NCBI GenBank assembly: GCA_947486785.1
Contig: CANKUU010000001.1
Coordinates: forward strand, 310,001-374,000
Length of the DNA stretch: 64,000 nt
Direction of reading: 5' to 3'
From: an uncultured Flavobacteriaceae bacterium
GTDB taxonomy: Bacteria > Bacteroidota > Bacteroidia > Flavobacteriales > Flavobacteriaceae
In this document: piece by piece, positions 583 through 30,149 of the stretch
How the letters are laid out: every line of letters starts with the position of its first letter
Numbering within the stretch: position 1 is the first letter of the stretch
Made by a program: the position numbers and the translations under genes
Notes under the pieces: model-generated
Told to the model about the DNA's origin: nothing
The model's database searches: none
What the model saw: only the letters and a program-made list of their open reading frames with translations

Positions 583-1779
583 TTAATCTTCGAAAAAAGC
601 AATGGATGAGCCAATCCAAGTTTCTTCTGTATTATGGGCTACATTAATAAGTTCTCCTTTACTTAATCTGGCGAGGTTTATTACTGGTTTAAAACCATTT
701 ATTTGTTGGTCCCAAATAAATAAAATACGCACTTCGGCTTTTGAGTTTTTTTCTGATTTGGTTTTTAGCGCAGCGGCATAGTTTACTTTTTCTTGAAGAA
801 TATAATTTTCTTTGTCTGTAATAGCAGCTATTTTTTCTTTATTTGGATACAAGTCAATACCTAGCCCAGCAAAAGAAAACAGGGGTTTTAACACATAGTC
901 GTTAAGGTTAATAGTGTCAGGATAGTCGTTAAGGTAAAATGAATTAGGAATATTTTTATGCTGTAGTTTTGGCATCACAGATTTTGATATCATATAAAAC
1001 CAATCGGGGTGTGTAACCCATTCTACATCAACATCATCGTGCAAATTAAATTGAGTTTCAATATCAGCTGTTCGCGAAATTTCGTCAAAAATAACACGGT
1101 TGTATATTCTCTTAATAGGTGTTTTTGTGCCGTTTTTTAGGTAAAAAAGATTTTTGCCTTCTTTCATTATTTTAGTCATGCAAACCACATCTATACCTAT
1201 TGCTTTTTTGGTGGCCCAAAAGTCGATTTTTGTTTTTTGTTTTTCTGGGTACAGTTCCATCAAAATTACATGCTCTTGTTTTTCATCACCTACAATAACT
1301 TTTTTAACTTCATTAATGTATTGTTCTTCATTGAGGTCATTAAAGTAAAAATCAAAGCCCTCTTTAGGCATGCCTGGAAAATTATTTAAAAATGCTTTAC
1401 CCAAAAAAGGTTGGTAAAAAAATAAGGTTGGAAAAGCTTGTAGCTCTATTAATTGTGGGCTGATACCGCCTTTATCATCTTCACATAAGCCAAAATCTAT
1501 CGCTAAAAAGTGTGGGTTGCCAAGAGGTGCAGGAGATTGAATGTCTTTGGGTACAAATTGCGCTCTAATTTCATCAAAATTAAAAGTGCTTAATTGTTTT
1601 AAAATACTATTACAAGTGTCAAAAATTGTTTCTTTAACCGCTTTGCTAATGAAAACTGGGGTTTCTGATAAACGGAAAACAGTACTTTCGCCATAGGTTT
1701 CTATTACCTCATTTTGTAGATTTTCGTAGTGTTCCTTTTTAAAATGGTCGTTGTAATGCTGCCTTACCTTGGGTATCAT
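583..1779 (-). CDS. Putative ATP-grasp-type ligase
   Basis: A 398-residue cytosolic protein without a signal peptide. I recognise no named family with certainty, but several features suggest a permuted ATP-grasp or glutathionylspermidine-synthetase-like ligase: an acidic IELQAFPTL segment near residue 111, YNRVIFDE near 226, a glycine-containing VLKPLFSFAGLGI near 296-308, ILQEKV near 327, an EVRILFIW strand near 349, and an Arg/Asn-containing end (ARLSKGELINVAHN, 370-383). It is the last gene of a minus-strand cluster and starts inside the amidotransferase stop codon (ATGA overlap). I infer ATP-dependent formation of an amide or peptide bond; the substrate is unknown. Confidence 0.55.
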   Translation of the reverse strand: MIPKVRQHYNDHFKKEHYENLQNEVIETYGESTVFRLSETPVFISKAVKETIFDTCNSILKQLSTFNFDEIRAQFVPKDIQSPAPLGNPHFLAIDFGLCEDDKGGISPQLIELQAFPTLFFYQPFLGKAFLNNFPGMPKEGFDFYFNDLNEEQYINEVKKVIVGDEKQEHVILMELYPEKQKTKIDFWATKKAIGIDVVCMTKIMKEGKNLFYLKNGTKTPIKRIYNRVIFDEISRTADIETQFNLHDDVDVEWVTHPDWFYMISKSVMPKLQHKNIPNSFYLNDYPDTINLNDYVLKPLFSFAGLGIDLYPNKEKIAAITDKENYILQEKVNYAAALKTKSEKNSKAEVRILFIWDQQINGFKPVINLARLSKGELINVAHNTEETWIGSSIAFFED

Positions 1780-2612
1780 GCTGGTTGAAGATTTGTTTCG
1801 TTTAAAGTTTTAGCTGCGTTTGCTAAAAACCGTGGTAATATTACTTTGTTTGTTTTCATTATTTTTTCGTCATCAGCAAGTTTTTCTAGCATTAAGCGAT
1901 ATTTCTTTTTGCCATATTTTTTAATTACGAGGGCTTTTTTATCCTTGCGTTCAAAATAGCGGGTCATTCCTTCCGCATCAGCTTCTGGATGAAATTGCGT
2001 TCCTACAATTTCGCTAGAAAAACGAATTGCCATTACTGCTCGCTCTAGCGCTACATTGGGTCTTGGTTTTTCGATACATAAAATATTGCCATTTAGGCTG
2101 TTAAGTTTCCAGTCTTTTGGGCCAATGACTTGGTAATCTCTAGAATCAACTGCATAAAAGGGGTCATCTAAATCTTCGAATAATATTTCGTTTTCACCAG
2201 TTTTGGTTTTAAACATTGGAAAAATACCGAACGAAGTTGATCTTCTTTTAATTACTCGAGCTAAATCCCAATGTAAACAAGCTAGTTGAAATGAGTGACA
2301 AATAAGAAATAAATGTTTTTTATTCTCTTTAGATAAGTTGTGGTATAGAACGCTATCTAAAAAATTAAAATAAGCATTTTCCCAAGGTTCGTTAAGCACT
2401 AAGGGTATGCCTGGGCCACCCGAAGATATAAATATATCATAGTCTTTAACCTTTGGTATTTCTGATTTTACACGAACGTCAAAAATATCAAAACTTCCTT
2501 TAATACCTTTTTGCATTAAAAAATTGCACACTTGCATTTTAATACAACGCATGCCTTCGTTGGCATGCCCGGCATTCATATCTAAAATTGCTATTTTATA
2601 CTTTTTTTTCAT
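1776..2612 (-). CDS. Class-I glutamine amidotransferase-like protein
   Basis: A 278-residue protein with a class-I GATase fold: SSGGPG (63-68) as the oxyanion region, nucleophile Cys105 in LICHSFQ, and His208/Glu210 in GTQFHPEAD completing the triad. The elbow reads C-H-S-F-Q instead of the usual C-x-G-x-Q, so glutamine hydrolysis is not assured; a related gamma-glutamyl-peptide hydrolysis is also possible. It sits between a GCS2-type ligase (69 bases upstream) and the ATP-grasp-like protein (4-base overlap), and has no fused synthetase domain. I infer that it supplies ammonia to, or trims, the product of its ligase neighbours. Confidence 0.8.
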   Translation of the reverse strand: MKKKYKIAILDMNAGHANEGMRCIKMQVCNFLMQKGIKGSFDIFDVRVKSEIPKVKDYDIFISSGGPGIPLVLNEPWENAYFNFLDSVLYHNLSKENKKHLFLICHSFQLACLHWDLARVIKRRSTSFGIFPMFKTKTGENEILFEDLDDPFYAVDSRDYQVIGPKDWKLNSLNGNILCIEKPRPNVALERAVMAIRFSSEIVGTQFHPEADAEGMTRYFERKDKKALVIKKYGKKKYRLMLEKLADDEKIMKTNKVILPRFLANAAKTLNETNLQPA

Positions 2613-2680
2613 CTATCCAAATCCTTTCTTCATTAACGTATAAAAATGAGTTGCCGTCTATTTAAGGGCTATAACTTTAT

Positions 2681-3778
2681 TTATAAGCCTTTATGCGTTT
2701 GTGAAACCACGTACTCCATTACTCTTTTAAGATCACGAGTGTCTTCATATACTTTTAACTGGCGGTCGGCTCCTGATCCTTGTTCAATCATCTGGTATAC
2801 ATAATTTACTTCCGTTCGGCATCCCAATTCATCAACAACATCATCTATAAATTCTAAAAGCTCATTAATTAAAGTTGGAAAAGGAACTTCTTCTTGTTTT
2901 CCAAAATCAATTAATTTAGCCTCTACTCCCCATCGAGCAGCGCGCCATTTATTTTCATTAATCAAGATACGTCGATATGATCTAAAACTTTGATTTTTTT
3001 GGTGTAATTTACTAAGTTTCGCAATTATACATTGCATGAGTGCCGCAATACATATTACTTCATCAACAGTCATAATCATATCGCAAACCCTAAACTCAAC
3101 GGTAGGGTATACAGGATGTAAGCGAATATCCCACCAAATCTTTTTACCATTATCAATACAATTGGTTTTTACCAAAAGTTTTACAAAATCGTCGTATTCT
3201 GGTACCGAAGCGAAATAAGGAGGTATACCCGTTCTAGGAAATTTATCAAATATTTTAGAACGATATGACTTAAAACCTGTTTCTCTGCCTTCCCAAAATG
3301 GAGAATTTGAGGATAAGGCATATAAATGTGGCAAGAAATAACGTGCCACATTCATAATTTGTAAACCTTCTTCTCTATTTGGTATGCCTACATGCACGTG
3401 CATTCCAAAAATTAAATTAGACCGTGCAACATCTTTCATCTCATTTATAAGCTGGTCATACCTTGGGTTAGGAGTAATTAACTGTTCGCTCCAATGTGAA
3501 AAGGGATGCGTGCCTAAAGCGGCTACCTCTAAATCTTCTTTTGAAGCAAGTTCAAAAATTTGTTGTCTTAAATAAGAAACTTCATCTCTGGCTTGGGTAA
3601 TGTTTTCGCAAACATTTGTGCCCATTTCTACCATAGATTGATGCATCTCTTCTTTAATGCGTTCTTTTAAAAAGACCTTTCCGCCATCTATAATTTTAGA
3701 CATCTGAGAATGAAGCTTCAAAGTGTCTTTGTTTAAAATTTGAAACTCTTCCTCTATTCCCAAGGTAAACTTATGCAT
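2681..3778 (-). CDS. GCS2-type carboxylate-amine ligase (YbdK family)
   Basis: A 365-residue member of the glutamate-cysteine ligase family 2 (YbdK/COG2170). It has the N-terminal GIEEEF motif (7-12), whose glutamates bind metal and ATP, the FGMHVHVG segment with His127/His129, and the conserved WWDIRLHP and VEFRVCD strands. The family condenses the gamma-carboxylate of glutamate, or another carboxylate, with an amine using ATP; E. coli YbdK has only weak gamma-glutamylcysteine activity, so the substrate cannot be read from the family. Neighbours are two ATP-grasp-type ligases and an amidotransferase, which suggests a multi-step amide-bond pathway rather than simple glutathione synthesis. Confidence 0.88.
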   Translation of the reverse strand: MHKFTLGIEEEFQILNKDTLKLHSQMSKIIDGGKVFLKERIKEEMHQSMVEMGTNVCENITQARDEVSYLRQQIFELASKEDLEVAALGTHPFSHWSEQLITPNPRYDQLINEMKDVARSNLIFGMHVHVGIPNREEGLQIMNVARYFLPHLYALSSNSPFWEGRETGFKSYRSKIFDKFPRTGIPPYFASVPEYDDFVKLLVKTNCIDNGKKIWWDIRLHPVYPTVEFRVCDMIMTVDEVICIAALMQCIIAKLSKLHQKNQSFRSYRRILINENKWRAARWGVEAKLIDFGKQEEVPFPTLINELLEFIDDVVDELGCRTEVNYVYQMIEQGSGADRQLKVYEDTRDLKRVMEYVVSQTHKGL

Positions 3779-3806
3779 GACCGTTTTGGGGTTTTAATTG
3801 ACTATG

Positions 3807-4964
3807 TTATTTTGTTTTTTTTACTGCTGATTTTTTAGCTACTACTGGTTTTTTAGCTACAACTGGTTTTTTAGGTGATTTTGCAGTAGTAGTTTTTTTC
3901 ACAGCCGTCTTTTTAGCGGGTGTCGCTTTTTTTGCTGCAACCTTCTTAACAGCTGTTTTTTTAACTTCTGAAGCAGATTTTAAACTTGTTTGCTTCGCAA
4001 GAGTAACTTTAGGAGAACAGGCATCTGCTATAAAAGAACCCCAAGACGTATTATTTTTTTTGGGCTTGTGTGCCTTGGCTTTTTCAATAGCTAATTTTGC
4101 CGAGTGCTCTACTATCCAATCAAAATTGTCTTGGCCTACAGAATTAATATCGGCATCTGGTGCTGGGTTACAAAAATCAATTGCGTAAGGTATTCCATTA
4201 CGAACAGCAAATTCTACCGTATTAAAATCATATCCTAAAGCTTTGTTTAATTGTAACGTATAGTCGTGAATGGTTTTCATTAATTTTTCATGCTCTTTAC
4301 CACTCGTATTTGGCGTTGTTGCATAACGTAAATGAGGCTCATTTCTTGGCTCATAAGGCATAATATGCACATATTTCTGGCCCAAAGAATACACTCTATA
4401 GTAATCTTCAAAAACAATTTCTTCTTGAAGCATCATTACCAAATCACCTGTTTCTTCAAGCTTAGCAAATAAATCATCCGGATTGTCAACGCGATATACA
4501 TTTTTCCATCCACCACCGTCATGTGGTTTCATATAAGCTGGAAATCCAATATAATCAAAAATGTAATTCCAATCTAAAGGGTTAGTTAAGTTTCTAAAAG
4601 AAGTCTCAGAAGTGTCTTCTGGTCTTTCTTTAGAGGGTAATAATACTGTTTTAGGAACCGGAATACCTAGCTCCATAGCTAAACAGTTGTTAAAGAATTT
4701 TTCATCTGCGCTCCACCAAAAGGGGTTGTTAATTATGGTAGTGCCCATTAATGATGCATTTTTAAGGTATGCTCTATAAAAAGGAATACTTTGAGAAATA
4801 CGATCAAATATTACGTGATATCCGTAATCTATACCTTGTTGCAATTTATCTATTTGAACGGGTTCTGCAATAATTTCACCTTTACCTAATTCATTTACTC
4901 GATTGATAAATGCCCATGGAAAAGTGTCTTCCATTCCAAATAAAATTCCTACTTTTTTTGCCAT
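3807..4964 (-). CDS. ATP-grasp ligase with histone-H1-like Lys/Ala/Pro tail
   Basis: A 385-residue protein. Residues 1-315 form an ATP-grasp ligase of the RimK/glutathione-synthetase type: an N-terminal GILFGMEDTFP segment, a glycine-rich loop in KPHDGGGWKNVY (146-157), MMLQEE (177-182), and the metal-binding strand pair with TVEFAVRNG (249-257) and AIDFCNPAPD (261-270). Residues 329-385 are low complexity: 21 lysines in 57 residues, arranged as KK spaced by Ala, Val, Thr and Pro like histone H1 or Bacteroidota Hc1 proteins. No stop or frame change separates the parts. It lies 23 bases after an esterase gene and 28 before the GCS2 ligase. Substrate unknown. Confidence 0.8.
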   Translation of the reverse strand: MAKKVGILFGMEDTFPWAFINRVNELGKGEIIAEPVQIDKLQQGIDYGYHVIFDRISQSIPFYRAYLKNASLMGTTIINNPFWWSADEKFFNNCLAMELGIPVPKTVLLPSKERPEDTSETSFRNLTNPLDWNYIFDYIGFPAYMKPHDGGGWKNVYRVDNPDDLFAKLEETGDLVMMLQEEIVFEDYYRVYSLGQKYVHIMPYEPRNEPHLRYATTPNTSGKEHEKLMKTIHDYTLQLNKALGYDFNTVEFAVRNGIPYAIDFCNPAPDADINSVGQDNFDWIVEHSAKLAIEKAKAHKPKKNNTSWGSFIADACSPKVTLAKQTSLKSASEVKKTAVKKVAAKKATPAKKTAVKKTTTAKSPKKPVVAKKPVVAKKSAVKKTK

Positions 4965-4987
4965 TTTTAATGCTTTTATTAATTAGT

Positions 4988-5698
4988 TTAAAAATATTTT
5001 TTAACATATTCTGGAAACATCATTTTCCAGAGTGGCCAATCATGGCTAATCCATTTTTTTTCGTCATACCAATGCGCAATGCCTTTTTCATTTAAGATTG
5101 CAGACATCTCTTGGTTTTTATCTAAACAAATATCCCAATCACTAGTGCCTAAAACAATTTGCATATGGTTGTATTTCCAGCCCTCTTCATTTCGCATGTA
5201 CTCATTTGGACAATTAAAATAAATACGCATATCTTCAGAATTTGGTGCTAAATTTCTAATGCTAAATGCTGCACTCATAGCGATTAGATGTGATACAACA
5301 TCTGGAAAACGGAAAGCAACGTTAGACGCGTGAAAACCGCCAAAACTCACACCAGCTACACCTATTCTGTGGGTGTTACATTCTTTTTGAATAAAAGGTA
5401 TGAATTCATTTTGTAAAAATTGCATGTATAATTCATAATTATGAATTTTCGTTTCAGAGTCGAGATCATCGTTATAGAAAGATAGCATATCTAGGGTTTC
5501 TACATTATACAATTTAACACGACCTTCTTCTACCAAGTCCATAATTGAGCCGTTAAGGCCAAAGTCCGAATTTTGAGTATACTGTCCGCCCGAAGAAGGA
5601 AACATTAAAATAGGGTGTCCCCAATGCCCCGTAACCTCAATCATAATATTTCTATCGAGTGTATTTGAGTAGTAAGGGATATGTTCAATTTTTGCCAT
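4988..5698 (-). CDS. Alpha/beta-hydrolase, esterase (PF00756-like)
   Basis: A 236-residue alpha/beta hydrolase without a signal peptide. It has an early HPILMFPSSGG oxyanion-region segment (28-38), the nucleophile elbow GVSFG with Ser118, and a C-terminal ISHDWPLW with His219 as the probable catalytic histidine. The family includes esterase D-like and Fes-like enzymes acting on esters and peptide-like siderophores. It is the first gene of the minus-strand ligase cluster, 121 bases from a divergently transcribed second esterase, so that gap probably holds promoters for both. I infer hydrolysis or release of the cluster's product; the substrate is not known. Confidence 0.8.
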   Translation of the reverse strand: MAKIEHIPYYSNTLDRNIMIEVTGHWGHPILMFPSSGGQYTQNSDFGLNGSIMDLVEEGRVKLYNVETLDMLSFYNDDLDSETKIHNYELYMQFLQNEFIPFIQKECNTHRIGVAGVSFGGFHASNVAFRFPDVVSHLIAMSAAFSIRNLAPNSEDMRIYFNCPNEYMRNEEGWKYNHMQIVLGTSDWDICLDKNQEMSAILNEKGIAHWYDEKKWISHDWPLWKMMFPEYVKKYF

Positions 5699-5819
5699 TT
5701 TTTATTTTATTCAAAAGTTTAATCACTAGCGTTTTAAGGGGTGCAAAAGTAAAATATTTTTATTAAGAACAATTTTATTTTTTACTATTTGTTATACTTG
5801 CACTTTCTTTCCAGAAAAT
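5699..5819. promoter_or_regulatory. Divergent promoter region between two esterase genes
   Basis: This 121-base AT-rich gap separates divergent starts. On the plus strand TATACTTG at 5793-5800 is one base off the Bacteroidota -7 consensus TAnnTTTG and lies 19 bases before the ATG. No clear -33 TTG or operator dyad was seen. The shared gap suggests joint control of both directions; this is inference. Confidence 0.35.
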
Positions 5820-6629
5820 ATGACGTATAAGATAGATTTTATAAATGTAAGAGGTTGTTTTTTTTCCAAAAAATTAGATCGCAATGTTAAGTTCCGATTT
5901 ACGGCTCCTGACTGTTATACCAAGAGCAAAGATTTGTTTCCGGTTTTGTTGATGAATGACGGTCAAGATTATCATAACATGAATTTAGAGGACACTTTAA
6001 GCGAAGCTTTTGCAGATAAAAATCTTAAAAAATTTTGTTACGTAGGTATATCTTGTAATGAAAATAGAATAAATGAATATGGTACAGCCAGTACCGCTGA
6101 TTTTAAAAATAGAGGTAATAAGGCAAAGGCTTATAACGAATTTATTATTGAAGAGTTTATGCCGTTTTTAAAAGAAGAATTTAAGGTAACAAAAGATCAA
6201 TCTGATTGGGTGTTTTGTGGCATGTCTTTAGGAGGCTTGTCTGCTTTCGATATTGCGTATAACCATCCTAATTTTTTTAGTAAAATTGGAGTTTTTAGTG
6301 GTTCTTTTTGGTGGCGCAAAAAAGCCTATGTTGCAGATGATGTGTTAGATAGGAGTCGTATAATTCTTGATGTTATTAAAAATAGAAAAGAGACGGCAAA
6401 ACAGCAATTTTGGCTGCAGACCGGAACCGCGGATGAAAGCGCAGATCGTAATGATAATGGTGTTATTGATGCCATAGATGACACAAAAGATGTTATAAAA
6501 GAATTACAGAAAAAAGGCTATTCATATCCGGGCGATATCACTTATGTAGAAGTTAAAGATGGTAAGCATGATTTGGCTACTTGGGCTAAAGTATATCCAG
6601 AATTTTTAAAATGGGCGTTTAAAGCTTAA
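5820..6629 (+). CDS. Esterase family alpha/beta-hydrolase
   Basis: A 269-residue cytosolic esterase of the PF00756 type. It shows PVLLMNDGQD (41-50), the nucleophile elbow GMSLG with Ser136, and GKHD with His250 close to the C-terminus. Residues 209-220 (D-R-N-D-N-G-V-I-D) resemble a calcium-binding EF-hand or dockerin-like loop inserted before the last catalytic residue, which is unusual for a cytosolic esterase. The gene is divergent from the minus-strand ligase cluster that begins with another esterase. Such enzymes hydrolyse carboxylic or peptide-siderophore esters. The pairing with the cluster suggests a linked role, but the substrate is unknown. Confidence 0.8.
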   Translation: MTYKIDFINVRGCFFSKKLDRNVKFRFTAPDCYTKSKDLFPVLLMNDGQDYHNMNLEDTLSEAFADKNLKKFCYVGISCNENRINEYGTASTADFKNRGNKAKAYNEFIIEEFMPFLKEEFKVTKDQSDWVFCGMSLGGLSAFDIAYNHPNFFSKIGVFSGSFWWRKKAYVADDVLDRSRIILDVIKNRKETAKQQFWLQTGTADESADRNDNGVIDAIDDTKDVIKELQKKGYSYPGDITYVEVKDGKHDLATWAKVYPEFLKWAFKA

Positions 6630-11706: not shown

Positions 11707-13890
11707 ATGAGAGCTTTAATTCTTCTTTTATGCTTTAGTATTTTTTCATGCAATACCGACAATAAATCTATGAACAATTTAGGTGAGCTCACATTAGCTC
11801 AAAAAGCCAAGCAAGTCTCCATTATTCGAGATGATTTTGGTGTGCCTCATATTTATGGAAAAACAGACGCAGATGTCGTTTTTGGTTTGCTGTATGCCCA
11901 ATGTGAAGATGATTTTAATAGGGTGGAGCAAAATTATATTTGGGCAACAGGAAGGTTGGCTGAGATAGAAGGAGAGGAGGCCATTTATAGTGATTTACGA
12001 GCAAAACTATTTATGACCGAAGAGGAGGCCAAGGCTAATTATGAAAAAAGTCCTGTTTGGTTAAAAAAATTATGTGATGCTTTTGCAGATGGTATTAACT
12101 ATTATCTAGAAACCCATCCAGAAGTGAAACCTAAACTGCTAACACATTTTGAACCCTGGATGCCGATGTATTTTAGTGAAGGGTCTATTGGTGGAGATAT
12201 TGAACGTATTAAAATTGATAAGATCAAAGCTTTTTATGAGGGAAATATGGAGATATCTGAAATAGCATCAAGTCAAATCAAGAAAAAAGAAGAAATGGCC
12301 GAACCACAAGGTTCAAATGGTATTGCTATTTCAGGGCAGCTTACGAAGTCTGGTAACGCCATGCTATTGATTAACCCGCATACCTCTTTTTATTTTAGAG
12401 GTGAAGTACATATGGTTAGTGAAGAGGGTTTAAATGCTTATGGGGCAGTTACTTGGGGTCAATTTTTTGTCTATCAAGGTTTTAACGAAAAAACAGGTTG
12501 GATGCATACTTCTACCTATACCGATGTTATGGATGAATTTAAAGAACATATTGTGCAGATTGATGGAGAGAAAAAATATCGATTTGGGGAGGAACTTCGG
12601 CCTTTAAAGAGCTCGAAGATTACACTTAAATACCTCGAGGGAAATGAAATTAAAGAAAAGATATTTCCGGCATATCGCACGCATCATGGCCCAATCACCC
12701 ATATAGTGGATGAACAGTGGACGGCGTCAGCAATGATGTGGAAGCCGATTAAGGCATTAGAGCAATCTTTTATTCGATCAAAACAAGGGGGTTATAAAGG
12801 TTTTCGTGCGATGATGGATCTTCGTACGAATTCTTCAAATAACACCGTATATGCAGATGCTGAAGGAAATATCGCTTATTTTCATGGTAATTTTGTTCCA
12901 AAACGTGATGAGCATTTTGATTATTCAAAACCAGTAGATGGTAGTAACCCAAAAACAGATTGGCAAGGTTTACATACGGTAGATGAAAACATATTATTGT
13001 TAAACCCTAAAAACGGCTGGTTGCAGAATTGTAATTCTACACCCTATACGGCTGCTTTAGAATTTAGTCCAAAGAAAGAGAATTATCCTAATTACATGTC
13101 TTTAGACCGTGAAAATTTTAGAGGAGTTCATGCCATTGAATTACTAAAGGATAGAAAAGGTTATACTATTGATAGCTTAATTAAGCTTGCGCATGACTCA
13201 TATTTGCCTGCCTTTAAAGCCTTAATACCAGGTTTGATAAAAGCTTATGATACTAATGATAAAACAAATAAATTAGCTGGTCCCATTGCAATATTACGTA
13301 CATGGAATTTTAGAACATCAAAGACATCGGTGGCTATGACTTTGGCGCATTATTATGGTTCCCGCTATTTTGAAGAAGGAAAATACCCGGAAGGCATGAC
13401 GCCAATGGAACGTTTAAAATATTGGGGTAGCACATCACCAAACAGTGAAAAATTACGAATTTTTAAAGCGGTAATAGCACAATTAGAAAGAGATTTTGAT
13501 ACCTGGAATATACCATGGGGAAAAGTAAATCGATACCAAAGATTAAACGGTGCTATTAGGCAGGCTTTTGACGACAGTAAACCTAGTATTCCAATAGGTT
13601 TTTCTTCGGGTAAATGGGGGGCACTAGCGGCCTATGGTGCTCGATACAACAATGGAACAAAGAAAATTTATGGCACACGTGGAAATAGCTTTGCAGCTGT
13701 TGTTGAGTTTGGGTCAAAACTAAAAGCTAAATCTATATTAGCCGGAGGTCAGAGTGGTGACCCAGAATCGGCTCATTTTAATGATCAAACACAAAGATAT
13801 GCAGATGCGAATTGGAAAGATGTAGCTTTTTATAAAGATGATGTTTTAAAAAGAGCTAAAGAAATTTATATCCCAGGAGAGCGAAAATAA
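11707..13890 (+). CDS. Penicillin-acylase family Ntn hydrolase, lipoprotein
   Basis: A 727-residue member of the penicillin/acyl-homoserine-lactone acylase family (S45). An N-terminal signal ends in IFSC with lipid-modified Cys15. The alpha-chain has the RDDFGVPHIYG start (41-51), and the autoproteolytic site is GS at 202-203, leaving Ser203 as the N-terminal nucleophile of the beta-chain (SNGIAIS). Conserved RTHHGPI and NNTVYADAEGNIAYFHGN follow. It hydrolyses amides such as N-acyl amino acids, AHLs or beta-lactam side chains in the periplasm or outer-membrane periplasmic face. It is convergent with the next gene, stop abutting stop. Confidence 0.92.
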   Translation: MRALILLLCFSIFSCNTDNKSMNNLGELTLAQKAKQVSIIRDDFGVPHIYGKTDADVVFGLLYAQCEDDFNRVEQNYIWATGRLAEIEGEEAIYSDLRAKLFMTEEEAKANYEKSPVWLKKLCDAFADGINYYLETHPEVKPKLLTHFEPWMPMYFSEGSIGGDIERIKIDKIKAFYEGNMEISEIASSQIKKKEEMAEPQGSNGIAISGQLTKSGNAMLLINPHTSFYFRGEVHMVSEEGLNAYGAVTWGQFFVYQGFNEKTGWMHTSTYTDVMDEFKEHIVQIDGEKKYRFGEELRPLKSSKITLKYLEGNEIKEKIFPAYRTHHGPITHIVDEQWTASAMMWKPIKALEQSFIRSKQGGYKGFRAMMDLRTNSSNNTVYADAEGNIAYFHGNFVPKRDEHFDYSKPVDGSNPKTDWQGLHTVDENILLLNPKNGWLQNCNSTPYTAALEFSPKKENYPNYMSLDRENFRGVHAIELLKDRKGYTIDSLIKLAHDSYLPAFKALIPGLIKAYDTNDKTNKLAGPIAILRTWNFRTSKTSVAMTLAHYYGSRYFEEGKYPEGMTPMERLKYWGSTSPNSEKLRIFKAVIAQLERDFDTWNIPWGKVNRYQRLNGAIRQAFDDSKPSIPIGFSSGKWGALAAYGARYNNGTKKIYGTRGNSFAAVVEFGSKLKAKSILAGGQSGDPESAHFNDQTQRYADANWKDVAFYKDDVLKRAKEIYIPGERK

Positions 13891-23464: not shown

Positions 23465-26400
23465 TTATTCTGTTAATCGATATACTTGTGCCTTATCATT
23501 ATTGATTGTAATTAATAAATAAGGCTGGTTGTTAAATGTAATTATATTTAAATTTCTGACTGATTTTTGGGCAATTTTTAATCCGATTTTATCGCCCATA
23601 ATTATGTTTTTTTCATTGTTTATTAAAGCGCCTGAGAAAGAATCAAATCGGCCATGATAGGGTTTGACTCCAAAGTAATTTCCAGCGACTAGAAGCTCTT
23701 TTTTTCCATCGTGGTCAAAGTCATAAGTTAGTAACGCCATTATTGGAGCGAATTGTAAAAGATTGTTAAAGGGGGTGAAAGTAAATTTTCCATTTTCATT
23801 TCGTAAAAAACCAGAACGCAATTCACTAACATGTAATGTAGTTGATTTTTTTAAAGCTTTTTCTCCCAGAATTTCACTAATTGTTTTACCTGCAAAGTCA
23901 TTATATGTAGTAAATTTTTTTCTTAGCGAGACTAACTGGCCAGAAAGCTCATCTAAACTTTCTAAGGGGTAGTATTTTTTGTCTTTTTCGGTAGCGACAA
24001 TTGTTTCAGTTTGACCATTGTTGTCAAAATCACCGTAATACATTTTCATGGGTGAAGCTTCGCTGGCTTTGAATTTACTGTTAGTTCCCCAATTCCCTAA
24101 GACATAATCGGTGTCACCATCATCATCAATATCAAAGGGGATAATACGCTGCCAAAGTCCGTGAAGATCGTTGCCAATAGGGTTTACTTTTGTTAACTTC
24201 CCATCCTTATTTTCAAAAAAGTTAGGAGACATCCATTCTCCAACAACAATAAGGTCTTTTGTTCCATCTTCATTGAAGTCATGCCATAGGGCATCAGTAA
24301 CCATACCTACTTTTTGAAGGGCATTATTATCTTCAATAGCGAAATTACCGTTAGTGTTTTTTAATAAGAACGAGTTGGGTTTTTTTCCAAAATCGTTAGA
24401 AACGGCTTGGTTGCCAACAAATACATCTAAATCTCCATCGTTATCATAATCATGTGCTGTTATAACAGCAGCGTTTTCAAAATAATCAGGTAGTGCTTTT
24501 TTTTCAAAACCATCTTCGTTTTGTTGGTAATAAGAATCTAGCAAAGGCTTCATTTTGTTGAAGAAGTCAGCACCTCCAGAGCCTAACAAGATATCATTTT
24601 TATGGTCATTGTTGAAATCGGCTATTATTGCAGCTACATCTTCTTTAATCGAATCTTTTGCAATGGAAGGAACATGCTTTGGTATAAATGCTGTGTCATT
24701 TTGAACATAAATTTTAGATGCAATATGCTTAGAACCTCCAAAGAAAACGTCTACTAATCCATCATTGTTAATATCGCCTAAAGCTGTTGCAGGTCCTCTA
24801 TCAGATATTTGATAAGGAATTAATTTTTGTCTATTAAAATCAACATAACGGTCTTCTTTGTGAGTGAAGTTAATGCCTAGGTTGCCTTTAACTTTGGCGA
24901 ACAACTTCTTGTCTTTTTGTTTTAGTGAGGTGTAGTTAAAAGGCTTTGTGTTTTCTGGTTTAACAACAAGCGTTTGGTTTACTTCAATATCTCTTAAAAT
25001 TTGATAGGTGCCATCTGGCCAAATAATGCGTAAAGAATCTACTTTCGTTGCCGCACCATAACCAAAATGAATCGTCGGTTCTGAGGATGCTTGAAACCCT
25101 CGCGCGGTATATAGTTCTTTATATTGAAGTTGACTGTTGTGGTATGAATAAACCTTTGTGCCAATGCCAAAGGTGTTCCTCGGTTTATAGTTGAACTTTA
25201 GTTTTAGATAGTTAGCTTTTTTGTTGGTTTGGTTTACATACAACGAAGCAGGTTCATTAGTGTTGTTAATGACTAAATCTAAATCGCCATCTAAATCGAA
25301 ATCGGCCAATGCGGTTGCACCCGATTTTAGGGTATCGTTAGTAATCCATTTTTTTGATTTATCTATAAATTTTAAATCTTTAGCACCTTTAAAAATATAG
25401 TTGTGAACGCCCCCTGAAGGCATTAGAGCCAATGCTTTTTTATCAACTAATTTGGTGTTGTTTATTTTTTTTTGAATTTGTTCATTAGAAACAAAATTTA
25501 TGTAGTCAAGATTGTTAGGGCGTTTTACAATGCCGTTGCTAATAAAAATATCTTGCATACCATCTTGGTCATAATCACCAAATAAAGCGCTCCAGCTCCA
25601 ATCTGTTGCGGCTACACCGCTAAGAAGAGCAGTTTCTGCATAGTTTCCTTCTTGATTATTTACAAACAGCATGTTTCGTGTGTATTGATAGTGGTAGCCA
25701 AAGCGTTCTACTCTCAATTTTTGCGTTTGTACGTCGTTAGCACCCTCTGATGATTTTAGTATTTTTTCATCTTCGGGTAACATATCTAAAGAAATAATAT
25801 CTGGCCATCCGTCGTGATTGATATCTGCTACATCATTTCCCATTGAAAAACGTGAGGTGTGACCAAAATATTGACGTAGAGATTCAGAAAAAGTACCGTC
25901 GCCGTTATTTAGATAGTAATAGTCATCCTCATGAAAATCATTACCTACGTAAATATCTGGATATCCATCTTGGTTAAAATCTGAAATCGCAACACCTAAA
26001 CCATAACCGTTTACTCCACCGTATATGCCAGCCTGTTCACTTACGTCAACAAATTTTCCGTTATCATTGCGAAGGAGTTTATCGCCAGTTTGATAATCTC
26101 TTTTTTTTCTTACTTCGGCTTTACCATAAGATTCTTGCGTATGTACTGCATGATTTAAAAGGTACATGTCTAAATCGCCGTCCAAATCATAATCTAAAAA
26201 GGCGGCTGATGAACTGTATGAGTCAAAATCAAGACCGTATTTTGCTGCGCTTTCTGTAAATGTAATTTGGCCAGTTTCTGTTGATATGCCATCATTTATG
26301 TAAAGTTCATTAGAGCCATTAAAGCCGTTGATGCCGACTACAGCGCAAACATAGATATCTAATAAACCATCTCCGTTTATATCGCCCATCACAGCTCCCG

Positions 26401-26731
26401 TATTCCAACTGCTGTTTCCTGTTACGCCTGCCTGTATTGAGATATCTTCAAATTGCAGATTGCCTTTGTTGATGTATAGTTTGTTTTTAGTTTGGTTTCC
26501 AGAAAAGAAAATGTCAGGTAGGTTATCTCCATTAATATCACCAACAGCAACACCGCCACCATTATAGAAATAAAGATAATCTAAAATGTTAACGTCTTTA
26601 GTTGCCTTAAGGGCGTTTGTAAAGGTAATACCTGTTTCTTGGGGTGTTGGATTTTCAAATAGTCTATTTTCTGAATTTCCACAACCAATTAAAAACATTA
26701 GTGTTAAAATGTAAACTACATTTTTAATCAT
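23465..26731 (-). CDS. FG-GAP/VCBS repeat and UnbV lipoprotein (second copy)
   Basis: A 1088-residue lipoprotein (signal ends FLIGC). The N-terminal half has seven or so FG-GAP/VCBS repeats, each with a calcium-type loop such as GDINGDNLPDI, DYDLDGDLDM and DFNQDGYPDI. An ASPIC/UnbV domain follows in the middle (FGIGTKVYSY, GFQASSEPTIHFG, LRIIWPDGTYQ), and a second block of repeats completes it. Such proteins form extracellular propellers that bind carbohydrate or protein ligands on the surface. It overlaps its upstream paralogue by 8 bases and precedes the haloperoxidase-like gene by 10, so the three are one operon. Ligand unknown. Confidence 0.88.
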   Translation of the reverse strand: MIKNVVYILTLMFLIGCGNSENRLFENPTPQETGITFTNALKATKDVNILDYLYFYNGGGVAVGDINGDNLPDIFFSGNQTKNKLYINKGNLQFEDISIQAGVTGNSSWNTGAVMGDINGDGLLDIYVCAVVGINGFNGSNELYINDGISTETGQITFTESAAKYGLDFDSYSSSAAFLDYDLDGDLDMYLLNHAVHTQESYGKAEVRKKRDYQTGDKLLRNDNGKFVDVSEQAGIYGGVNGYGLGVAISDFNQDGYPDIYVGNDFHEDDYYYLNNGDGTFSESLRQYFGHTSRFSMGNDVADINHDGWPDIISLDMLPEDEKILKSSEGANDVQTQKLRVERFGYHYQYTRNMLFVNNQEGNYAETALLSGVAATDWSWSALFGDYDQDGMQDIFISNGIVKRPNNLDYINFVSNEQIQKKINNTKLVDKKALALMPSGGVHNYIFKGAKDLKFIDKSKKWITNDTLKSGATALADFDLDGDLDLVINNTNEPASLYVNQTNKKANYLKLKFNYKPRNTFGIGTKVYSYHNSQLQYKELYTARGFQASSEPTIHFGYGAATKVDSLRIIWPDGTYQILRDIEVNQTLVVKPENTKPFNYTSLKQKDKKLFAKVKGNLGINFTHKEDRYVDFNRQKLIPYQISDRGPATALGDINNDGLVDVFFGGSKHIASKIYVQNDTAFIPKHVPSIAKDSIKEDVAAIIADFNNDHKNDILLGSGGADFFNKMKPLLDSYYQQNEDGFEKKALPDYFENAAVITAHDYDNDGDLDVFVGNQAVSNDFGKKPNSFLLKNTNGNFAIEDNNALQKVGMVTDALWHDFNEDGTKDLIVVGEWMSPNFFENKDGKLTKVNPIGNDLHGLWQRIIPFDIDDDGDTDYVLGNWGTNSKFKASEASPMKMYYGDFDNNGQTETIVATEKDKKYYPLESLDELSGQLVSLRKKFTTYNDFAGKTISEILGEKALKKSTTLHVSELRSGFLRNENGKFTFTPFNNLLQFAPIMALLTYDFDHDGKKELLVAGNYFGVKPYHGRFDSFSGALINNEKNIIMGDKIGLKIAQKSVRNLNIITFNNQPYLLITINNDKAQVYRLTE

Positions 26732-29700
26732 CGATTGTAAATATCTTAGGTTTGCTATTATTTATGGCTGCAATTAAAAAAACGTTGCCTTGCGAATCTT
26801 TAAATTGCTTCAGGTGTTTTATTTCTTCTCGAATATGAAAGCCACTAGAATCATATGTTTGCCATTTAAAATTCATATTGCCATCTCCAAGTAGTACATT
26901 GCCATAGCTAGCATCTAGTCGAGAGTATTGTGGTTTAAATTCAAAATTATTACCGCCCATAATCAAATCAAGATTACCATCTTTATTTATATCAACACAG
27001 CTAATGCCACAAATACACGAAAGTTGCACCCGTGGAGGTAATTTTTTAATGGTAAATTTTCCACCCCCTTCGTTAATGGCAATTACAGATTCGGATATTT
27101 GAGCTTGTTTTACAATAGAATTGTTAAAAATTTCTGTAGTAAACAATTCGTCTATTGCTTTAGTTGCGTAGATTGAAGCTTTGATGTTTTGTTTTTTCAA
27201 AGCTGCCATTTGCCCAGTCATTTCTTGTTTTTGATGTATTGGATAATCTTTTTCGTTTTTGTGTTGCGTTACTATTTGCTCGAGAGTTCCATTGTTATCG
27301 TAATCATTTATCCATATTTTCATTGGATTATTAGGTGAAGGTCTGTAATGTAAATTACTGCCGTGGTTGCCTAAAACAAGGTCATTGTCACCGTCATTAT
27401 CTAAATCGGCACTAGCTACTGCGGTCCACCATCCTGATAGACTGTCGAGTGAGCTTGGTATTTTTGCCAAACGCCTCCCGTTGTTTTTGTATATGTTAGG
27501 GGTGCCCCATTCTGAAACAGTAACCAAATCTTCTTTATCATCTCCATCCATATCAACCCATGTGGAATTGGTAATCATGCCTGCATTTTTTATAGCATAA
27601 GCATTCTTTTCAGTAGCATTTTGAAATGTTCCGTCGCCATTATTGATTAAAAATAAATGATTCGGATCTATTCCGTATGTGCCTACGACACTTCTAGAGC
27701 CAATAAACAAGTCGATATCACCATCAGCATCAAAATCATTGGGTGAAATTGTAGCGATGTTTTTATAGGTAGAGGGTAGCTGTTGTGAAGATCTGTTAAA
27801 TACACCTTTACCATTGTTTAAATATAATCGACAACCATAGGTGCGCTCTTCTCCTAACTGATTACCTCCTGAGCCAACGATTAAATCTAAATCATTATCA
27901 CCATCAGCATCAAAAAAAGCAGCAGCGGTATCTTCATAATGAGCGTCTTCATTAAATATTTTTTGAGGTATGCGTTTTAATTTTCCCTTACCAGTATGTT
28001 TGTATATAACTGGGATATTTTCTTTAGCTCCTCCGACAAAAACATCTTCATTTCCATCTCCATCAATATCACCTATCGCAACGCAAGGACCTTCTTGAGA
28101 TAATGATTTGAATATCAGACCTTCATTATTGAAATCGTTGTAATTATTTTCTTTGTGAGGAATTAGACTGTTGGTTTTAATTTCGGTAAGTAGCGTTTTT
28201 TTAATCGCTTTTTTGGTGTGAGAATAGGTTTCATCAGCATCCTTTTCTTTGAGGAGTAGTGTTTGATTGGCTTTGACGTTAACCATTTTTTGACTTCGGT
28301 CGTTAGGCCAAATTACACGAAGAGAATCCATAGTAGCAGTTTTGCCTAAACCAATGGTCATGGTGTAGTCCATAGAACTTTGGAATCCTCTAGATGGTAT
28401 TTGCTCTTGAAATACAGTTTTATCCTCATAATAAATCAGTACAGCGGCTCCAATTGCAAATTTGTTTTTTATTGAGCCTTCAAACTGTAGGCGTATAAAG
28501 TTATTATTAGTGAGAGAATCAGCATGGTTTTCGTAAAAAAATGCAGGCATATTTACATTGTTCACCACAAGATCTAAATCACCATCATTGTCTAAATCTC
28601 CATAAGCGGCACCATTAGACATACTGGGTATCTCAAAACCCCATTCTTTATTAGCATTTGCAAAAGTAAGATCACCTTTGTTGCGATATGCATAATTGGG
28701 CTGTGGTCGAATAGGCATTTTGTTTATAATAGAATCTATAGATTCTTTTTTGCCTGTTAAGGCCATTTTTTGCATAATTTCATTGGCAAAAAAATCGACA
28801 AAATCAAGGTCTGTTAAATCATGGTTGATGCCGTTGGTAATGTAGATATCTCGAAGCCCGTCATTATCCATGTCAAGCAAAAGTCCTGCCCAGCTCCAGT
28901 CAGTAGCATCGACACCACTAAAATTTGCAATCTCAGAAAATGAGCCATCCCCATTATTTAGTTGTAGCGTATTTTGAATATACTGTTGGTAAAAATCTTT
29001 ACTTTGCTTTAGTTTGAAAACATCATAGCCTTCAAATTCCATAACAGCTTTAACGCGCTCATCAGCTTCAGGAAGCATATCAGTAATGAAAATTTCTGAG
29101 TTTCCATCATTGTTTATGTCTGCAATGTCAATGCCCATTGCTGAAAGCGAAAGATGTTGTGTCCACTTTTTTATTTCCTCTCGGAAAGTGCCATCTTGAT
29201 TATTGATATAAAGATAATCTCGTTCATAGAAGTCATTGGAAACGTACAAATCAGGATATTGATCCTTGTTAATGTCCGTCACCATTACGCCTAGTCCAAA
29301 ACCAATTAAACTACCATAAATACCAGCATCCTCACTAACATCTACGAATTTTCCATTGTCATTACGCAACAACATATCGCCAACACCTTTAAAAATATCA
29401 GGTACACCTTCCCAATCTTGGGCACGTACGTGTCGTTGTTCTGCATAGCCTAAGCTACTTACAGGAATATTGCTGTTATTTAAAATGTAGGCATCTAAGT
29501 CACCATCTTTGTCATAGTCAAAAAAAGTGGCATGTGTTGAAAATCCAGTTTTAGCAAGATTATATGCTGCAGCTTTTTCGGTAAAAGTTAGGTCACCATT
29601 GTTAATGTACAGGTCATTATCATGATTGTTACCTTTCATGTTCCCGGCATTACTTACATAAATATCCAGTAATCCATCACCATTAATGTCTACCATATTC

Positions 29701-30149
29701 ACTCCTGTAGACCATGGTTTATTACCTTCAACACCTGCTTTATTAGTGATGTCTTCAAAAGTAAGATTGCCTTTGTTGAGATATAGTTTGTTAGGCACCA
29801 TGTTGCCAGTAAGGTAAATATCTGGCAGTCCGTCATTGTTTATATCACCAATTGCAACGCCTCCACCGTTGTAGAAGTTACGGTATTTAAAAATATTAAA
29901 ATCCTTCTCATTTTCTACCTTATTAATAAAGTCTAGGCCGGTTTTTTTAGCAGGTAATAATGTGAATAAAGTACTGTTTTTTTTTGTGCTTTTTTCGTTT
30001 TCTTCTTTAGATGTTGAACAAGAATAAAAAATAGAAACTAAGATTAGATAGCTAACAAATAGGCGTAAATCTTTACGGCTAATTAAACAAAATAGATGGT
30101 TTGTTTTAATTGCTTTTTTTAGAACGGTGAATAAGGAAAAAAAAATCAT
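26724..30149 (-). CDS. FG-GAP/VCBS repeat and UnbV lipoprotein (first copy)
   Basis: A 1141-residue paralogue of the downstream gene with the same order: FG-GAP/VCBS repeats (GDINNDGLPDI, DINGDGLLDI, DYDKDGDLDA), a central ASPIC/UnbV domain (FAIGAAVLIYY, GFQSSMDYTM, LRVIWPNDRSQ) and further repeats to the end. The lipoprotein cysteine is Cys44 in IFYSCSTS, preceded by an unusually long ~29-residue basic n-region; no internal ATG offers a shorter start. It begins the operon and lies divergent to the sodium symporter across 276 bases. A surface binding role is inferred. Confidence 0.87.
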   Translation of the reverse strand: MIFFSLFTVLKKAIKTNHLFCLISRKDLRLFVSYLILVSIFYSCSTSKEENEKSTKKNSTLFTLLPAKKTGLDFINKVENEKDFNIFKYRNFYNGGGVAIGDINNDGLPDIYLTGNMVPNKLYLNKGNLTFEDITNKAGVEGNKPWSTGVNMVDINGDGLLDIYVSNAGNMKGNNHDNDLYINNGDLTFTEKAAAYNLAKTGFSTHATFFDYDKDGDLDAYILNNSNIPVSSLGYAEQRHVRAQDWEGVPDIFKGVGDMLLRNDNGKFVDVSEDAGIYGSLIGFGLGVMVTDINKDQYPDLYVSNDFYERDYLYINNQDGTFREEIKKWTQHLSLSAMGIDIADINNDGNSEIFITDMLPEADERVKAVMEFEGYDVFKLKQSKDFYQQYIQNTLQLNNGDGSFSEIANFSGVDATDWSWAGLLLDMDNDGLRDIYITNGINHDLTDLDFVDFFANEIMQKMALTGKKESIDSIINKMPIRPQPNYAYRNKGDLTFANANKEWGFEIPSMSNGAAYGDLDNDGDLDLVVNNVNMPAFFYENHADSLTNNNFIRLQFEGSIKNKFAIGAAVLIYYEDKTVFQEQIPSRGFQSSMDYTMTIGLGKTATMDSLRVIWPNDRSQKMVNVKANQTLLLKEKDADETYSHTKKAIKKTLLTEIKTNSLIPHKENNYNDFNNEGLIFKSLSQEGPCVAIGDIDGDGNEDVFVGGAKENIPVIYKHTGKGKLKRIPQKIFNEDAHYEDTAAAFFDADGDNDLDLIVGSGGNQLGEERTYGCRLYLNNGKGVFNRSSQQLPSTYKNIATISPNDFDADGDIDLFIGSRSVVGTYGIDPNHLFLINNGDGTFQNATEKNAYAIKNAGMITNSTWVDMDGDDKEDLVTVSEWGTPNIYKNNGRRLAKIPSSLDSLSGWWTAVASADLDNDGDNDLVLGNHGSNLHYRPSPNNPMKIWINDYDNNGTLEQIVTQHKNEKDYPIHQKQEMTGQMAALKKQNIKASIYATKAIDELFTTEIFNNSIVKQAQISESVIAINEGGGKFTIKKLPPRVQLSCICGISCVDINKDGNLDLIMGGNNFEFKPQYSRLDASYGNVLLGDGNMNFKWQTYDSSGFHIREEIKHLKQFKDSQGNVFLIAAINNSKPKIFTIDD

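Follow-up and report, generated by a model that had tools for sequence, protein, structure and literature searches.

A candidate operon of three ligases and accompanying hydrolases in Flavobacteriaceae and other Bacteroidota

Amidoligase operons and the locus under study

A survey of multi-amidoligase operons was reportedly published by Iyer et al. in 2009 (Mol Biosyst 5:1636). In the passage of a later article that deals with such operons, ATP-grasp ligases linked in operons, together or with COOH-NH2 ligases, are described as repeatedly seen, often for successive ligations, and the operons as thought to make peptide metabolites (PMC4431377, citing Iyer et al. 2009); going by that passage, multi-amidoligase operons are an already known kind of gene organization. 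Here we describe a locus of this kind at positions 583 to 6629 of a 64,000-nucleotide stretch of DNA (hereinafter the window) from an uncultured Flavobacteriaceae bacterium (GenBank assembly GCA_947486785.1, contig CANKUU010000001.1, positions 310,001 to 374,000). Its likeness to the described systems lies in the presence of ATP-grasp ligases and a GCS2-type (COOH-NH2) ligase in what is probably a single operon.

The locus holds six open reading frames (ORFs), five of them on the minus strand, where the order of transcription is EST1, AG1, GCS, GAT, and AG2. EST1 (4988..5698), an alpha/beta-hydrolase, stands at the head and is followed by the ATP-grasp ligase AG1, weakly of RimK/Ddl type and with a Lys/Ala-rich C-terminal tail (3807..4964), the YbdK-type GCS2 carboxylate-amine ligase GCS (2681..3778), the class-I glutamine-amidotransferase-like cysteine enzyme GAT (1776..2612), and AG2 (583..1779), a predicted ligase of the glutathione-synthetase/glutathionylspermidine synthetase (GSPS)/YgiC fold. 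The gaps between EST1 and AG1, AG1 and GCS, and GCS and GAT are 23, 28, and 68 bases, respectively, and the GAT and AG2 reading frames share 4 bases. These ORF coordinates agree with a preliminary description of the DNA, made from the letters and the ORFs, as five minus-strand genes in tight order plus a divergent esterase (EST2, discussed below).

We consider it most probable, at roughly 0.6, that the three ligases build a small peptide-like molecule which the hydrolases trim, release, or recycle, i.e., that the minus-strand genes form one operon for a cytosolic nonribosomal pathway. More tentatively, the product might carry gamma-glutamyl and peptidyl-amine features. It is likewise conceivable, though we hold it with considerable reserve, that about a third of the sampled Bacteroidota possess an unrecognised peptidyl-amine or gamma-glutamyl peptide pathway with three ligases, an interchangeable amide hydrolase of the GATase-like, M29, or amidohydrolase type, and one ligase swapped wholesale in another branch, the whole amounting to a glutathionylspermidine-like cycle of synthesis and hydrolysis with a product of its own. 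No description of the present operon was recognised in the literature searched, which was covered mostly at the level of titles and the beginnings of abstracts; as far as this could be tested, what is new is the distribution over 296 genomes, the exchange of AG2 with another ligase (c6), and the exchange of the hydrolase. If the product is made in so many genomes (AG1 was found in 108 of 296), it would belong to the phylum's general metabolism. The replacement patterns make the question of its nature testable.

Four further systems invite comparison. Gss and YgiC/YjfC share the predicted fold of AG2, and Gss would also share the pairing of a ligase with an amide hydrolase; however, neither Pfam nor NCBIfam links AG2 to that family, the similarity is local, and the present locus would contain two further ligases. 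Glutathione synthesis by a GCS2-type glutamate-cysteine ligase and a eukaryotic-type synthetase likewise sets a GCS2 ligase beside a glutathione-synthetase fold, whereas here GCS falls below the equivalogs, and AG1 and the hydrolases are additional. Escherichia coli YbdK aligns with GCS but lies outside any such operon, and GCS reaches PRK13515 and not PRK13516. The operon of circularly permuted ATP-grasp proteins comes with alpha-E, transglutaminase, and Anbu genes. It is echoed here by weak, subthreshold matches of c6 to CP_ATPgrasp_2 and _1; unlike in that operon, alpha-E, transglutaminase, and Anbu were not recognised beside c6 in the listed loci, for which no family-by-family scan was made.

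Families and folds of the three ligases

GCS is a YbdK-type GCS2 ligase by its sequence matches. It matches GCS2 (PF04107) in Pfam with an E value of 1.3e-66 (225 bits against a cutoff of 21) and lies above the NCBIfam cutoffs for the PRK13515 carboxylate-amine ligase (543 bits versus 371) and TIGR02050 (310 bits versus 176), and its residues 3 to 336 align with the YbdK structure 1r8g (E = 1.9e-50).

AG2 had no Pfam or NCBIfam family at an E value of ≤1. Its AlphaFold2 model, based on 43 sequences, reached a predicted local distance difference test (pLDDT) score of 89.9 and a predicted template modeling score of 0.90, and all 27 Foldseek matches at an E value of ≤0.001 belonged to the glutathione-synthetase/GSPS/YgiC fold (E = 1.5e-13 to 9.5e-7). 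They include glutathione, homoglutathione, and glutathionylspermidine synthetases, YgiC/YjfC, and nematode and plant relatives; the structure 3n6x ranks third. Because the template modeling scores by query length are about 0.45 to 0.62 (root mean square deviations of about 6 to 11 Å), the relation to these proteins is distant. Profile searches favor YgiC (E = 0.003, and 0.0056 in another search), with an hhalign probability of 82.7 over 101 columns. YgiC carries the annotation peptide-spermidine ligase (see also the relevant passage of PMC12568646). With the model as its basis, AG2 can confidently be predicted to be ATP-grasp-like and of this fold, which supports what had been a guess in the preliminary description.

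AG1 resembles RimK and Ddl ligases weakly. Its NCBIfam match to the RimK family (TIGR00768) is below the cutoff (E = 2.4e-5, 23.8 bits versus 143.4), and its structure model is poor (mean pLDDT, 66.4); the 50 fold matches listed for that low-confidence model, with E values of about 1e-12, are Ddl, RimK, LysX/ArgX, and graspetide ligases.

Conservation of gene order and co-occurrence

Gene order was compared in 80 named loci, which are the best AG1 matches (71 to 81% identity in the best segment), close by design, and come from relatives including Maribacter, Muriicola, Zeaxanthinibacter, Dokdonia, and many Chryseobacterium. Of these, 76 retain the full order EST1-AG1-GCS-GAT-AG2 (L, G, and f numbers are our handles for loci, genomes, and families); among the exceptions, L035 and L040 reach a contig end, L083 reaches a contig end and has no EST1 upstream, and L099 lacks AG2.

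Co-occurrence was examined in 296 Bacteroidota genomes from 140 genera. AG1 was found in 108 genomes, after removal of six matches to the tail only (G025, G154, G170, G202, G245, and G285), AG2 in 92, GCS in 103, GAT in 70, and c6, which is introduced below, in 16. AG1 and AG2 occur together in 89 genomes, GCS is present in 87 of the 92 AG2 genomes, AG1 is present in 69 of the 70 GAT genomes, and 104 of the 108 AG1 genomes also have AG2 or c6. Many Chryseobacterium and marine Flavobacteriaceae are among the AG1-bearing genomes, as is G079, which carries the FMO protein known from green sulfur bacteria. In 60 further AG1-centered loci, chosen from the 108 AG1 genomes, at least one of GCS, GAT, AG2, and EST1 lies near AG1 on the same strand in 37; because only these 37 show a neighboring core gene, the co-occurrence is more than a restatement of linkage. 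The comparison across Bacteroidota that the preliminary description had called for thus found the neighborhood conserved, and its notion of stepwise ATP-dependent ligases acting with hydrolases is supported too.

Replacement of AG2 and of GAT

Among the 19 AG1 genomes without AG2, 15 carry the gene c6 directly after AG1 on the same strand, and in 14 of the 15 the next gene after c6 is GAT; the four others hold only divergent AG1 matches. The c6 product matches 3n6x, a putative glutathionylspermidine synthase, with an E value of 1.8e-8. Matches to c6 weaker than 1e-80 (21 of 37) were dropped, and G137 alone has both AG2 and a relative of c6 (37% identity). In these genomes, AG2 looks to have given way to a remote relative within its superfamily. 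Two of the c6-type operons, L164 and L167, extend into a third ATP-grasp gene (PF13535 for L164) and a further gene grouped with an Asparaginase_2 protein (PF01112) of L119; the clusters concerned are c11 and c19.

Other genes may stand at the place of GAT. In five GAT-lacking genomes, which span four families (f19 twice, f30, f38, and f46), an M29-type gene (PF02073; identity, 62% or more) sits precisely between GCS and AG2; a sixth genome, G208, has a strong M29 match at another place. In a test of 80 genomes (all 39 AG1 genomes without GAT and 41 of the 69 with GAT), from which matches under 60% identity were dropped (16 of 22 genomes), strong M29 matches were found in 6 of the 39 versus 0 of the 41 (Fisher P = 0.011). 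Further, 30 loci were viewed in genomes that lack GAT, and 11 of them have an Amidohydro_3 gene (PF07969) directly upstream of AG2, at a spacing of −29 to +17 bases. This survey covered 30 of the 37 AG2 genomes that lack GAT, and the other seven were covered through L023, L024, L127, L141, L149, and L152 and, by coordinates, G251. Two f4 loci, L124 and L131, have relatives of this amidohydrolase (31 to 35% identity) close to the operon, and L131 also has GAT. No recognised hydrolase was found at the GAT slot of the other GAT-lacking genomes. Other genes also adjoin AG2: a sodium:solute symporter gene (PF00474) lies directly before it in three f28 genomes (L183, L184, and L186), joined with AG2 in one 867-amino-acid open frame at L183:1137-3740, and a class-I tRNA synthetase-like gene lies before it in L185, L187, and L210 (PF00579 for L187).

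Proposed pathway and alternatives

In the proposed pathway, GCS would form a gamma-glutamyl-type amide, and AG1 would add an amino acid or a similar acid. AG2, judging by its fold, would activate the C-terminal carboxylate of the peptide and join it to an amine or amino acid, a step analogous to those of glutathione synthetase, glutathionylspermidine synthetase, and YgiC. GAT or its stand-ins may cleave an amide of the product or of an intermediate, EST1 would be among the hydrolases that trim, release, or recycle, and EST2 would be accessory.

A number of observations weigh against this proposal. The P values for co-occurrence ignore phylogeny. AG1 is absent from three AG2 genomes (G144, G154, and G220); in G154, GCS, GAT, and AG2 follow one another without interruption, but the 12 kb examined of its 21.6-kb contig contain no AG1. 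Conversely, four divergent AG1 matches (34 to 40% identity) occur without AG2 and c6. Five AG2 genomes and eight c6 genomes with GAT lack GCS, such that a gamma-glutamyl step would not be universal, and 12 genomes have GAT without any GCS match. A comparison of the AG2 profile with that of c6 gave no match (hhalign probability, 1.3; that of the c6 profile with the E. coli trio is 11.2), and the case for replacement therefore rests on position, fold, and distribution. All 11 amidohydrolase cases come from two families (nine from f24 and two from f27), the AG1 model is poor, and GAT retains the class-I triad, with which donation of ammonia would still be possible.

This last point leads to a doubtful alternative, in which GAT would act as a genuine glutamine amidotransferase supplying AG2 or c6 with ammonia, and the pathway would yield a peptide amide comparable to glutathione amide. 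GAT passes the Pfam cutoff for class-I GATases (PF00117) narrowly (E = 1.5e-5, 25.2 bits versus 22.8), its Cys105, His208, and Glu210 are invariant across 18 sequences, and its overlap with AG2 and its place after c6 accord with such a partnership. Against it, GAT is absent from 37 of the 92 AG2 genomes, and the motif around its conserved cysteine is CHSFQ, whereas class-I glutamine amidotransferases usually carry CxGxQ. In some GAT-lacking genomes, unrelated hydrolase-type genes, M29-type or amidohydrolase, occupy its place, which hints that an amide hydrolase belongs in this slot and that GAT may itself hydrolyze an amide instead of supplying ammonia. The label GATase-like stands as to family and triad; the slot replacements count against ammonia donation.

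A low-molecular-weight thiol pathway, in which GCS makes gamma-glutamylcysteine, AG1 and AG2 extend it, and the esterases serve as thioesterases, is unlikely. The joint presence of a GCS2 ligase and a glutathione-synthetase fold in one operon speaks for it, as does the inclusion in PF00756 of S-formylglutathione hydrolases, a family with a weak NCBIfam match here. However, BshC of bacillithiol synthesis was found in all 80 of the genomes tested for it, 40 of which have AG1 and 40 of which do not, and hence the niche of such a thiol is filled; the notion that the product is the sole low-molecular-weight thiol of the cell was set aside on this ground. GCS also remains below the equivalog cutoffs in NCBIfam for glutathione-type glutamate-cysteine ligase (gshA_cyano, TIGR02048; 67 bits versus 249) and for EgtA of ergothioneine synthesis (TIGR03444; 12.7 bits versus 370.8). 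The statement in the preliminary description that no recognisable glutathione pathway is encoded holds to the extent that these equivalogs are not reached, but GCS and the predicted fold of AG2 do resemble glutathione-type chemistry.

Somewhat less probable still is that the ligases modify a macromolecule, with the AG1 tail binding ribosomes, DNA, or another polyanion. This Lys/Ala-rich tail (residues about 317 to 385; 3810 to 4013 of the window) is the site of the sole Pfam match of AG1, which is histone-like and subthreshold, and the RimK-type fold matches would suit such a role. The tail, noted early on as basic, is real, and K-rich AG1 tails recur in at least eight families (f1, f3, f5, f8, f10, f22, f46, and f47), but Chryseobacterium and many further lineages have this operon with a tailless AG1, and GCS2 and glutathione-synthetase folds belong mostly to enzymes with small-molecule substrates. 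Loci with Lys/Ala-rich AG1 tails are L116, L117, L120 to L122, L127, L136, L138, and L159.

That the genes are unrelated neighbors, conserved merely through the close kinship of relatives chosen to be close, is very improbable given their co-occurrence across genomes of 140 genera, unlinked cases included, and a nonsense neighborhood was rejected on the gene order of the 76 loci together with this co-occurrence. Two further candidates were also rejected: an anti-phage defense system, as the six proteins and c6 had no PADLOC match at an E value of ≤0.01, and a plasmid-borne module, as AG1 had zero matches in 72,556 plasmid records.

Esterases, promoter region, and neighboring genes

Both esterase labels of the preliminary description, like those of the GCS2-type and GATase-like genes, correspond to Pfam matches, with EST1 and EST2 (5820..6629, plus strand) matching Esterase (PF00756) at E values of 2.6e-8 and 7.5e-26, respectively. 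EST1-like genes occur in 153 of the 296 genomes, and paralogs are common, so that the presence of EST1 is not diagnostic. EST2 had been proposed as a member of the pathway; it is a genuine PF00756 esterase but stands in the divergent position in just 20 of the 80 named loci and in 12 of the further 60, and it is accessory and outside the core. On plasmids of Sinorhizobium, Peptoclostridium, and Pararhizobium, an EST1-like gene directly follows a c11-type ATP-grasp gene in three of six loci (L113, L114, and L176, not L115, L177, and L178), a possible two-gene relative in other phyla that we offer as a lead only.

The 121-base intergenic region between EST1 and EST2 includes a candidate promoter for the minus-strand genes (5744..5772), TTG-N18-TACTTTTG, the sequence of which, read from 5772 to 5744, fits the Bacteroidota-type promoter consensus. 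TAnnTTTG occurs 49 to 63 bases ahead of EST1 in 12 of 20 relatives. Since the two strands of the window together contain nine occurrences of the full pattern, the candidate is argued from position and conservation. A sigma-70 promoter scan was uninformative (25 sites found versus 27.1 expected).

Just past the end of the operon, at 84 to 383 on the plus strand, lies an ORF for a ParE-type toxin (PF05016; E = 1.2e-15), the usual antitoxin partner of which would be expected ahead of the window. A few kilobases from the operon, the window encodes a further amide hydrolase, a penicillin amidase family protein (11707 to 13890, plus strand; PF01804; E = 6e-119), and at 23465 to 30149 on the minus strand, it encodes a tandem pair of large FG-GAP/ASPIC-UnbV repeat proteins (1088 and 1141 amino acids).

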